From Roseibium marinum (GTDB lineage: Bacteria; Pseudomonadota; Alphaproteobacteria; Rhizobiales; Stappiaceae): 64,000 bases of DNA. Below, in pieces: positions 12,888 to 63,049 of the stretch. The notes under the pieces are model-generated. The model saw nothing but the letters and a program-made list of their open reading frames with translations. It did no database searches and was not told where the DNA came from. Made by a program: the position numbers and the translations under genes. Position 1 is the stretch's first letter; each line of letters starts with the position of its first letter. Location of the stretch: NCBI RefSeq assembly GCF_002906165.1, contig NZ_PPCN01000011.1, positions 186,001-250,000 of the forward strand, written 5' to 3'.

Positions 12888-13304
12888 TCAAAAAACGTCC
12901 TGTCTTGCCCTGGACAAAAAGAAACCGTGGCCATCGCGATTGCTGCACCGCAAACCTTTCTTGGAAGAGTGACAGACAAACCCTCCAAACTCGCCAGTCA
13001 CCCCGTATTCCGCCCTGTCAAATCCACCCTTGCTCCGGTCGGTTTCCCCGCAATGCACTTCAACTGTTCCTCTTTCCTTCATTGAAAAGGTATGTCCCCA
13101 GTCCGAATTGCACCAATTCGGCTTTGGCAGCGCGGGAGGGTCTGAGCGATTGATAATCGTGCAGATGATATCGGAGAGCACATTGAAGTCCTCGCCCACG
13201 GAGCATTGGATGTTTTGCGAAGGTGTCTCGAAGGTCCAGATGTCCGCAAGCGCCGGGCCGGCACAAATCCAGAAAAACACTGGAACAAGCAGTTTGGTTC
13301 TCAT
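12888..13304 (-). CDS. DUF6636 domain exported protein
   Basis: 138 residues from an ATG at 13304. Residues 1-21 (MRTKLLVPVFFWICAGPALAD) are a signal peptide. The mature part carries the DUF6636 pattern: FETPSQNIQCSV, a Cys in ICTI, WCNSDWGHTFSM, VHCGETD, YGVTGEFGGFVCHSSKKGLRC and the ending GHGFFLSRARQ. Six mature Cys suggest disulfides in the periplasm. The frame extends upstream into the repeat element, but those residues are not family-like. It lies 54 nt upstream of the propeller gene in the same direction, so the two may be co-transcribed. The biochemical role of DUF6636 is not known. Confidence 0.82.
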   Translation of the reverse strand: MRTKLLVPVFFWICAGPALADIWTFETPSQNIQCSVGEDFNVLSDIICTIINRSDPPALPKPNWCNSDWGHTFSMKERGTVEVHCGETDRSKGGFDRAEYGVTGEFGGFVCHSSKKGLRCSNRDGHGFFLSRARQDVF

Positions 13305-13478
13305 TTGGTTTCCCAACCGGTTTTCATGGTCCTTCATCCGGTGAAGCGGCTGCCATTCGGTCAGTTCCCGCTCCAGCGACCCTTCTTGCGCGCTGGCAAC
13401 ATCAATACTCCGGTTTCCGACAACGCGACCCGATTCGCGGCAGAAACCATCGTCCGAAATGTAAAAGCAATCGCTGTT

Positions 13479-13739
13479 ATACCAAAGAGCGTTGATTATG
13501 ACCCATCGGATGGGCCATTCCCGTTCGCCGGCGAGGCGCTCTGCGCAGTACGGCCTGGTTGGCCGGACAAGCAGTGCAACGAAGTCCGGCGGGCGGGAAT
13601 GGCCCACCGAAGGCCTGTTTTGGAGGGGTCGGACGGCGTCGCACGTCTTGCCCGATACCCCGCATCGCACTGCGACGAGCTCCTGGCCGAAAACCCTCTA
13701 AAACAGGTCAGATGAGTCATAATCAACGCTCTTTGGTAT
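13479..13739. repeat. 260-bp MITE-like element with nested inverted repeats
   Basis: The ends are perfect 24-bp inverted repeats (13479-13502 and 13716-13739) beginning ATACCAAAGAGCGTTGATTA. Inside are two further inverted repeats: a perfect 12-bp pair GGGCCATTCCCG (13512-13523 with 13594-13605) and a 14-bp pair with one mismatch, CCTGTTTTGGAGGG (13614-13627 with 13694-13707). The whole strand can therefore fold as a closing stem with two side hairpins. TTA flanks a TACC...GGTA core on both sides (13477-13479 and 13739-13741), consistent with a 3-bp target duplication. It encodes no convincing protein. A relative sits at 63016-63049. Confidence 0.8.
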
Positions 13740-13788
13740 TAGCTATCCACCTTGCGGCGTCCATCAGCGATTGTTGCAGATGCGCAGA

Positions 13789-15330: not shown

Positions 15331-15688
15331 TATAACGCTCCACTATTAAAAGCATGATTTTATTACTACTCAATAGATACTGCGGCTGGATGGATCGCGG
15401 ACACCCGATACAGGCGGCAGCTAACGATTCATTCGGAGCAAGAATGCTCGATCGGTTGCCATGTCGAAGAGCGCATAAAATCTGCTCTCCGGCGGGACAC
15501 TAAAACCAATATCGTACCGTTCATTAGGGTACGGATCTGTGAACGCAATTAACAAAGCAGGATTGATTGTGCCTCACGGATAGCAGTTAGCAAATAAGCT
15601 AGATGTAGCATTTACGTGCAAGTCCAGCTGAGCAATCATACAAGGTCATGGATGCTGACGTAACCTAACAACGTTGAGAGGGTGCCGG
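15331..15688. other. A+T-rich divergent intergenic region
   Basis: 358 nt between the 513-residue orphan and the LuxR solo. It must hold both promoters. I see no clear lux-box palindrome, riboswitch or small gene here, only A+T-rich sequence near the orphan start and a GAGAGGG ribosome site ahead of the LuxR ATG. Confidence 0.5.
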
Positions 15689-16456
15689 ATGGAGGACCTG
15701 CAATCGGCAATCGAGTCTATTCAAAAAGCCGAACTCCCGGAAAACGCCTTCCATGAGTTCCGCAAGATCATCCGTGCCTATGGTTATGAAAATGCAGTCT
15801 TTTCCTTGATAACCGATCATCCTTCGATCCGTCAGGGAGCCTTTCACGGCCTCTCCACCAGTTATCCTGAAGACTGGATGAAACACTACAAGCAAAACAG
15901 CTATCATAATTTCGACCCCGTCTTTCACCGCATACTTTTAAAGCCCGGCGCGTTCTTTTGGTCAGACGCCATCTCCTCACTGGAGCGGGACTCCAGGTTC
16001 ACCAGCTCGCTGCTCGATCGTTCGCGAAGCCTGATGCAGGAAGCCGCGGATGCCGGTCTTGCGGACGGCATTGCGGTGTCCATACCCAATGAATGGGGAG
16101 AAATAGCCGGAATTGGGATCTCCCGGCCGCAACGCGAAACCGATCTTGATGTCAGAGCCTTAGCCGACATCCAGCTTTTGTCCGCGGTCCTGCACGAAAG
16201 ATATATGGGCTGTTACCGGTCATGGAGCCCCGCACCGCTGACCAATCGGGAAAAGGAGGTGCTTTCCTGGTCGGCGGAGGGCAAGTCCGATTGGGAAATC
16301 GCGGAAATTATAGGCATTTCAAGGGCAACAATCCGATTCCACTGGAACAACATCTTCAAGAAACTGGCTGTGAACAACAAAACCACAGCAACCGTTCACG
16401 CCATTCGAAGAAAGCTGGTCGTTCCGGATGCGCTGCGACCCTTCAACCCGCTTTGA
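15689..16456 (+). CDS. LuxR-type solo quorum-sensing regulator
   Basis: 255 residues from the ATG at 15689, 7 nt after GAGAGGG; a TTG five codons upstream is less likely. The N-terminal half is an autoinducer-binding domain with the residues that line acyl-homoserine-lactone pockets in TraR/LuxR: W63, Y67, D76-P77 (YHNFDPVF) and W91 (AFFWSD). The C-terminal part is a GerE-type HTH: PLTNREKEVLSWSAEGKSDW, EIAEIIGISRATIRFHWNNI, FKKL. No luxI-type synthase is in the window, so it is a solo that may sense its own cell's signal made elsewhere or a neighbour's. Its genomic partners are exported proteins of unknown function. Confidence 0.9.
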   Translation: MEDLQSAIESIQKAELPENAFHEFRKIIRAYGYENAVFSLITDHPSIRQGAFHGLSTSYPEDWMKHYKQNSYHNFDPVFHRILLKPGAFFWSDAISSLERDSRFTSSLLDRSRSLMQEAADAGLADGIAVSIPNEWGEIAGIGISRPQRETDLDVRALADIQLLSAVLHERYMGCYRSWSPAPLTNREKEVLSWSAEGKSDWEIAEIIGISRATIRFHWNNIFKKLAVNNKTTATVHAIRRKLVVPDALRPFNPL

Positions 16457-63015: not shown

Positions 63016-63049
63016 ATACCAAAGAACATTGATTATGACTCTTTGGTAT
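63016..63049. repeat. Deleted relative of the 260-bp element
   Basis: ATACCAAAGAACATTGATTA... TCTTTGGTAT with perfect 10-bp inverted ends. The first 24 nt match the left end of the element at 13479-13739 at 22 of 24 positions; the right end matches its final 10 nt. It looks like an internal deletion that left only the ends. It lies 10 nt after the SLC13 stop. Confidence 0.7.

Follow-up and report, generated by a model that had tools for sequence, protein, structure and literature searches.

Background

REP, BIME and REPIN sequences are GTAG/CGTC-tagged units of 20-40 bp moved by RAYT enzymes, and they share with the elements described here the arrangement of strand-specific hairpins in inverted pairs, whereas the present elements consist of 95-nt modules within terminal inverted repeats (TIRs) and have target duplications. 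The R0/R2 MITEs of P. fluorescens are likewise short, non-coding, multi-copy and intergenic, with TIRs and the ends of a resident IS (PMC2718517). By the part of their description available, they differ from the elements here, which hold two inverted, strand-specific 95-nt modules inside the TIRs and have these modules in common among subfamilies with different ends and duplications and among several classes (PMC2718517). The IS427 group (Paracoccus IS1248, ISPpa2), as tabulated in part in PMC3281130, resembles an IS of the host genome treated below (L254) in length, in its two ORFs and in its 2-bp TA duplication, but the small elements lack a transposase, and those of the TACCAA/TNA type have other ends and a 3-bp duplication.

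Structured intergenic repeats are also described from Alphaproteobacteria. Br-REP1 of Bradyrhizobium has three palindromes or stem-loops, and its core, CCGGAATCTCGAGATTCCGG, is not the module found here, a distinction drawn from the printed description rather than from an alignment; the available part of that description gives neither TIRs nor a target duplication (PMC5082802). The CcrM-associated intergenic repeats (CIR) of Caulobacter (Chen and Shapiro 2003; PMC2229807) invite the reading that the present elements belong to the CIR or extend them directly, given the same class, the intergenic location, a GANTC site in a structured repeat and TA at the termini. We regard this as improbable, because CIR, compared by description only and as far as the excerpted account goes, are about 110 bp long, with two arms and a linker, no TIRs and GANTC at the terminal loop, while the copy studied here has 259 bp, TIRs and GANTC in the terminal stem (PMC2229807).

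The window analysed here, a 64,000-nt stretch from Roseibium marinum, contains an element that is probably a non-autonomous MITE of a family present in several classes of the Pseudomonadota, with the plan TIR-H-7 nt-inverted H-TIR; H is a hairpin module that may act at the RNA level, mobilisation would occur in trans and CcrM may gate the movement. This plan was found in no description in the mainly open-access literature on Caulobacter repeats, alphaproteobacterial MITEs and stem-loop families, nor in that on three-way or cruciform MITEs, CcrM and transposition, and IS5 MITEs. The elements have TIRs, are multi-copy without a transposase gene and, in sister copies, show a target duplication and empty sites. 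The family is filed here as a new variety of MITE, set apart from the nearest systems largely by their descriptions.

Boundaries, modules and fold of the window copy

The initial annotation had proposed a 260-bp element with a TTA duplication. Direct reading of the sequence confirmed both the element and the TTA on each side, and the positions of the two TTA copies (Table 1) place the element at 13480-13738, a length of 259 bp, so that the earlier limits were one base too wide on each side. The end arms (13479-13510 and 13708-13739) show 94% complementarity across 32 nt, the near-perfect TIRs measure 31 nt and the outer 24 nt (ATACCAAAGAGCGTTGATTATGAC) pair perfectly, as had been annotated. 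The stem of arm 1 (13511-13531 with 13586-13606) has a complementarity of 90%, and the 14-bp internal inverted-repeat pair noted earlier is present, with one mismatch as DNA. The RNA fold of the copy is the predicted three-arm structure, a three-way junction with an MFE of -163.9 kcal/mol, compared with a mean of -96.3 kcal/mol (sd 5.1) in shuffled controls (z = -13.2); 0 of 200 shuffles reached it.

The two inner arms are inverted copies of module H, a 95-nt hairpin for which a covariance model, R1, was built from 59 arms. Arm 1 aligned to the reverse complement of arm 2 with a mean score of 23.3, as against 14.9 for the forward orientation and 15.3 for shuffled sequence, and adjacent module pairs, in matches counted from 100 loci, were convergent in 69 of 70 cases, and in 43 of these 69 the modules stand exactly 7 nt apart, counts from which cut-off matches and weak second-strand matches were left out. 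This homology and the convergent pairing together give the plan stated above. Module H also recurs in convergent pairs outside the class. Element versions with one module, with deletions (internal in L226, L233 and L237) and with flipped parts occur as well; in L012 (G000:C16, 1049-1309) arm 2 is flipped and both modules lie on the same strand. The relic near the end of the window still holds a GACTC site, and a comparable 32-bp relic was seen in locus L161.

On its left the element has a minus-strand ORF that matches DUF6636 and runs from an assigned start at 13304 to 12888, and on its right a minus-strand ORF of 513 aa (15330-13789) without a Pfam match at E<=0.001. A LuxR-type autoinducer-binding regulator (Pfam Autoind_bind and GerE) lies nearby at 15674-16456.

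Table 1 Features of the element and its relic in the window
Feature	Position	Strand	Basis
Left target duplication copy (TTA)	13477..13479	.	Sequence; most empty sites of sister copies have one TNA
Left terminal inverted repeat, A type (TACCAAAGAGCGTTGATTATGACCC...), one side of terminal stem	13480..13510	+	Pairing, fold, A1 alignment
GACCC, in the terminal-stem arm without GANTC, one base off	13500..13504	+	Sequence, aligned-copy count
Hairpin module H, arm 1, native on +	13511..13606	+	R1 match G000:C11:199511-199606:+, 86.7 bits, E 5.7e-17 (one of R1's training rows)
Linker between modules, 7 nt	13607..13613	.	Gap length in convergent module pairs
Hairpin module H, arm 2, native on -	13614..13707	-	R1 match G000:C11:199614-199707:-, 66.1 bits (also a training row)
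Right terminal inverted repeat	13708..13738	-	Pairing, fold
GAGTC (CcrM-type GANTC site), in one terminal-stem arm only	13714..13718	+	Sequence, aligned-copy count
Right target duplication copy (TTA)	13739..13741	.	Sequence
A-type relic, 32 bp, the two ends fused to each other and both modules gone	63017..63048	+	Sequence

Compensatory change and strand-specific wobble pairs

Covariation was examined in A1, an alignment of 47 elements made up of 44 of the 52 length-filtered extractions and three copies from the host genome. Eight loci (L059, L091, L097, L108, L116, L128, L130 and L147) were left out as cut, odd-ended or near-duplicate, and L017, whose right end is cut off, was dropped from the stem and flank counts and from arm 2 in the energy test. 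The RNAalifold consensus of A1 has 80 pairs, 74 of which show kept two-sided changes; paired cells amounted to 94.2%, compared with 65.1% in shuffled and 34.8-42.2% in slid controls, and the covariation score was 0.741 against 0.193. In the terminal stem 95.8% of cells were paired, and two-sided variation was present in 29 of 29 terminal pairs and 34 of 35 arm-1 pairs, while arm 2 has five pairs at its tip without any variation, the apical motif of this arm being invariant in A1 because the loci were selected by that very pattern. The end sequences differ between subfamilies with the fold kept. Since copies differ in sequence but keep their fold, selection appears to act on the shape itself, which agrees with the selection on structure suggested at first annotation.

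A structure kept as RNA tolerates G.T on one strand but not A.C, whereas double-stranded DNA makes no difference between them. The terminal stem was symmetric in this respect (G.T 35, A.C 32). Arm 1 had 135 G.T and 26 A.C, and arm 2, read on the same strand, had 2 G.T and 30 A.C and is therefore G.T-rich on the other strand; RNAalifold-predicted pairs favour G.U, but arm 2 shows the opposite excess regardless. Alifold energies for the two strands were -64.1 versus -48.6 for arm 1 and -15.6 versus -33.1 for arm 2. In a native-strand energy test, which is independent of the RNAalifold structure, the native strand was the better one within the class in 39 of 47 copies for arm 1 and 46 of 46 for arm 2. 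Among 33 modules from outside the class (G.T 36, A.C 8) the native strand was more stable in 32 (mean -63.4 versus -57.6 kcal/mol), a difference that was nearly gone with DNA parameters without G.U (-33.7 versus -32.6). The rows behind all of these counts share ancestry. Taken together, the wobble asymmetry speaks for modules selected for RNA folding, each on its own strand, with ends matched at the DNA level.

The same covariation could come about in an ordinary IS5-derived MITE whose palindromes are passengers, with arm complementarity kept by quasipalindrome correction, that is, template switching during replication, which gives two-sided changes without selection. Unstable hairpins of the expected kind are on record in the inverted arm of L012, the deletions in L226, L233 and L237 and the 32-bp relics at 63017 and in L161. 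Correction predicts perfect pairs on both strands, however, and not G.T on the native strand only; a recurrent stem mismatch is kept at alignment columns 26/251 (paired in only 25 of 46 copies), and the 95-nt module recurs in convergent pairs outside the class. This explanation, already weakened by the wobble asymmetry, has in our estimate only a small chance of being correct. Under selection for RNA folding, the wobble pairs of each H fit its own strand, and a transcript entering from either side therefore first meets a natively folding H. The module would then act at the RNA level, for example by protecting or processing read-through transcripts.

Distribution of the element and of module H

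The host genome (G000, 6.06 Mb, 29 contigs) contains 46 BLAST pieces of the element, and the R1 search returned 56 module matches at E<=0.1 and 53 at E<=1e-3, so the copy count called for in the initial annotation shows a multi-copy sequence. By their ends, the copies fall into subfamilies A (the window copy), B (TACCAACCTCAATAAATAGG), C and D with TACCA ends and into the TA-type subfamilies E (GAGCACTTTAAAAG) and F (GGGTCTGTGGACAATTAGG); a search with the F-end pattern gave 36 matches, 22 of them left-end-like.

A DNA search, with eight candidates scored per genome, located the element in 29 of 87 genomes of the family and in three of seven genera. A scan of named genomes for the apical motif of arm 2 returned at least 117 stretches, which, among the matches listed, are nearly all from Alphaproteobacteria by record title, with hosts such as Inquilinus, Pelagibius, Nitratireductor, Hoeflea, Chelativorans and Roseibium, including a Roseibium contig (NZ_CANMFD010000002.1, L068) carrying the same kind of element. 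One motif stretch (L097) is labelled Phycisphaerales, possibly through a binning error, and one IMG/VR contig (L285) is the only viral contig with the motif. R1 surveys, with 14 candidates scored per genome, so that copy numbers are lower bounds, found module H in 32 of 289 genomes and 28 of 224 genera of the class, with no match at E<=0.001 in the other 257 genomes, and in 30 of 299 genomes of the phylum, of which 23 are from outside the class. Elements outside the class have the same plan with other ends, such as TAGGGCCTGTT...AACAGGCCCTA. A third end type, about TAGCCCGCATTTCTCACC, surrounds the same core in L044, L090, L119, L153 and L158, from Rhodospirillaceae-like and other genomes.

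The whole element had no match at E<=0.01 in plasmids and phages, and TIR queries run against plasmids for IS ends gave weak or chance matches only, among them two in Sulfitobacter at E 0.3 and 3. The Rfam 15 covariance models, applied at gathering score to the window and to sets of 17 and 19 loci, included no family that covers a module; the four Rfam matches in those loci (Cis8_sRNA, two tRNA and one cobalamin riboswitch) lie off the modules, and a search at permissive E yielded a single match, to mir-132 on L015, at chance level (E 0.76). The cobalamin riboswitch (L178 21-183, 40.1 bits), which is from outside the class, ends approximately at the edge of a module-bearing element.

A wider reading is put forward tentatively and may well not hold. 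In it, H would be an RNA-level cargo, its inverted pair carried across several classes on exchangeable, unrelated ends of TNA and TA type, so that the unit of selection would be the structured RNA (or a single strand); movement in Alphaproteobacteria would in addition be coupled to the cell cycle by a single CcrM site kept in just one of two otherwise matching ends.

Empty sites, target duplications and genomic context

In 45 genomes of the genus, matches were sought to the joined flanks of 13 copies from the host genome, with six candidates scored per genome. A contiguous orthologous empty site, read at base level, was found for 8 of the 13, namely L231, L232, L236 and L237 (F type) and L010, L017, L019 and L021 (A/B type), with one TNA at the A/B sites and one TA at the F sites. 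Departures from this were AAA in both relatives of L021, TGA in one relative of L010, ATAG in place of YTAR in the relative of L232, small gaps just past the junction in relatives of L236 and L231, and about 22-29 extra bases just before it in relatives of L237. For L013 one match was listed (G052), crossing the junction by 22 bases, and no contiguous empty site was present among the matches listed for L009 (the window copy), L229, L235 and L238. The copy number, the TNA duplication and the empty sites of sister copies bear out the mobile character first proposed for this sequence; what had been named as arguing against it, namely a single copy, no covariation and misfitting empty sites, was not what was found.

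Flanking 3-mers were identical in 21 of 34 TACCA-type copies (shuffled mean 9.6, maximum 18 in 2000), and 31 GAGC/GACC-type copies had YTA as left flank in 30 and TAR as right flank in all 31. TACCAA ends thus go with a TNA duplication and GAGC/GGG ends with a TA duplication in YTAR. An F-type copy adjoins another module-bearing element in L234, and an IS5_3 abuts an E-type end in L254 (1081-1120). Element edges regenerate YTAR, and elements and IS therefore insert at each other's edges.

Many copies abut a stop codon: in 25 of 45 elements the target is exactly where an ORF of at least 150 codons ends, compared with 14 of 195 other target sites lying no more than 150 bp away. Together with the RNA-strand-specific folding, this placement would suit a host-domesticated RNA element, such as a 3'-UTR stabiliser, a bidirectional terminator or an sRNA source, comparable to REP/BIME, ERIC or NEMIS, that regulates its neighbours and whose mobility is historical. 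Stop-codon targeting was rejected, however, as the 18 of 33 cases observed compare with 15.5 expected from targets in the same intergenic interval, so target availability explains the placement; in this analysis of stops and neighbours, which used a crude ORF caller, 11 further elements lay inside a called ORF. The neighbour genes show no convergent bias (+- 8, -- 11, ++ 7, -+ 7), and a role at RNA 3' ends is therefore unsupported by placement. Copies are, moreover, polymorphic between species, and we consider domestication unlikely, if somewhat less so than the other two alternatives discussed above.

Candidate mobilising enzymes

In the mechanism proposed for the MITE, a DDE transposase acting in trans would cut at the ends and insert the element at a short target, which would be TNA for the TACCAA-ended subfamilies, including the window copy, and TA within YTAR for the GAGC/GGG-ended ones. 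Of three PF01609 matches in the host genome, one (L254) represents an IS5_3 transposase encoded in two frames. Its two ORFs scored 119.8 and 125.2 bits with NF033580 (cut-off 110), with a DUF4096 match, and the IS is 842 bp long with the ORFs in different frames and a 2-bp TA duplication. These are the features tabulated for the IS427 group in the available part of PMC3281130, that is, an IS5-type transposase, two overlapping ORFs, about 830-870 bp and a 2-bp duplication. The only PF13586 match in the genome, below cut-off, falls within the same IS. Next to TA on either side, the ends of L254 read GAGTCTGTGGACATTTA and GGATCTGTGGACATTTA, almost identical to the F-type ends. Among the 45 genomes of the genus, 32 contained DUF4096, and of 30 DUF4096 loci, ten IS with readable ends were compared (L254 standing for L265); their flanks read YTA on the left and TAR on the right in eight, on the right only in L280 and on neither side in L262.

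The IS5-like mobiliser suggested at annotation is thus supported for a sister subfamily, because an IS5_3 element with matching ends occurs in the same genome, but not for the TACCAA/TNA type, where the loci examined yielded no transposase sharing its ends. Going only by the similarity of ends and target, the TA type may be mobilised by an IS5-family (IS5_3, IS427-like) transposase, with L254 as the candidate autonomous partner of the F type, and a related IS5-type enzyme may mobilise the TNA type. The window copy itself does not fit an IS5/IS427-derived MITE with a TA duplication and GG/GA ends, as it has a 3-bp TTA and TACCAA ends. IS630 elements target CTAG/TA, and as mobiliser of the TA type IS630 was rejected, there being no PF13358 match in the host genome. 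Locus L253 (G000:C12, 1311-2746) contains an IS that is about 1436 bp long and has CTAGCACTACTTTGGCAGAAGTGT as a perfect inverted repeat of 24 nt; an F-type element sits at its CTAG edge.

No TACCAA-ended transposase was present among the extra A-type ends and the 30 DUF4096 loci examined. The extra A-type ends (L160-L164) are single ends, weak matches or a 32-bp relic. In the DUF4096 loci, nine TACCA/TGGTA pairs 700-1700 bp apart span the transposase, only one of which (L256) has similar ends and TTA on both sides. This apparent autonomous TACCAA element of 1374 bp, beginning with TACCAACCGCA inside its TTA flanks, was rejected as a one-module element interrupted at TA by an IS5_3. In L256 (810-2184, G062) the inserted IS5_3 has the ends GGTCGTAGACTCATAA and GGCTGTGAACCCATAA, with GANTC in one end only. 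A long autonomous element between the distant modules in L206 (G493:C86) was likewise dismissed: each module belongs to a small element of its own, and ordinary genes lie between the two elements. The apparently unpaired F ends belong to full or internally deleted small elements (L226, L227, L229 and L230) or to a truncated one (L228).

GANTC in one arm of the terminal stem

Among 46 aligned copies, the terminal stem holds GANTC in one arm in 17, in both arms in one and in neither in 28, so that 17 of the 18 copies bearing the site have it in one arm only; rows share ancestry, and these counts are therefore not independent events. Most terminal pairs other than 26/251 are paired in 40-46 copies, with columns 25/252 and 30/248 also weak (35 of 46). 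The arms are identical at the site in 1 of 18 GANTC-bearing copies, while stem 5-mers off the site match in 30-43 of 45-46. In the 40-nt ends of 79 extractions GANTC was in neither end in 49, in one end in 27 (left once 14, left twice 4, right 9) and in both in three. Of the ten IS5_3-type elements, six (L254, L262, L271, L275, L278 and L281) have GANTC within the first 40 bp of a single end, one (L257) has it in both ends and three have it in neither; the ends of F-type elements carry none.

In IS10/IS50, Dam controls transposition via hemimethylated sites, according to the accessible part of PMC5390034. Both systems have a methylase site in an element end, but it is Dam GATC in IS10/IS50 and CcrM GANTC in the elements here (PMC5390034). 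The recurrent one-arm GANTC suggests that CcrM hemimethylation would gate transposition as Dam does there.

Implications

The covariance model R1 now describes a structured mobile element that has no Rfam 15 match in the tested loci and occurs in at least 28 of 224 genera of the class. Arms whose wobble pairs fit their own strand provide a natural test of RNA versus DNA selection in MITEs. If the one-arm GANTC rule holds, CcrM-coupled, cell-cycle-linked transposition would be directly testable in Alphaproteobacteria.
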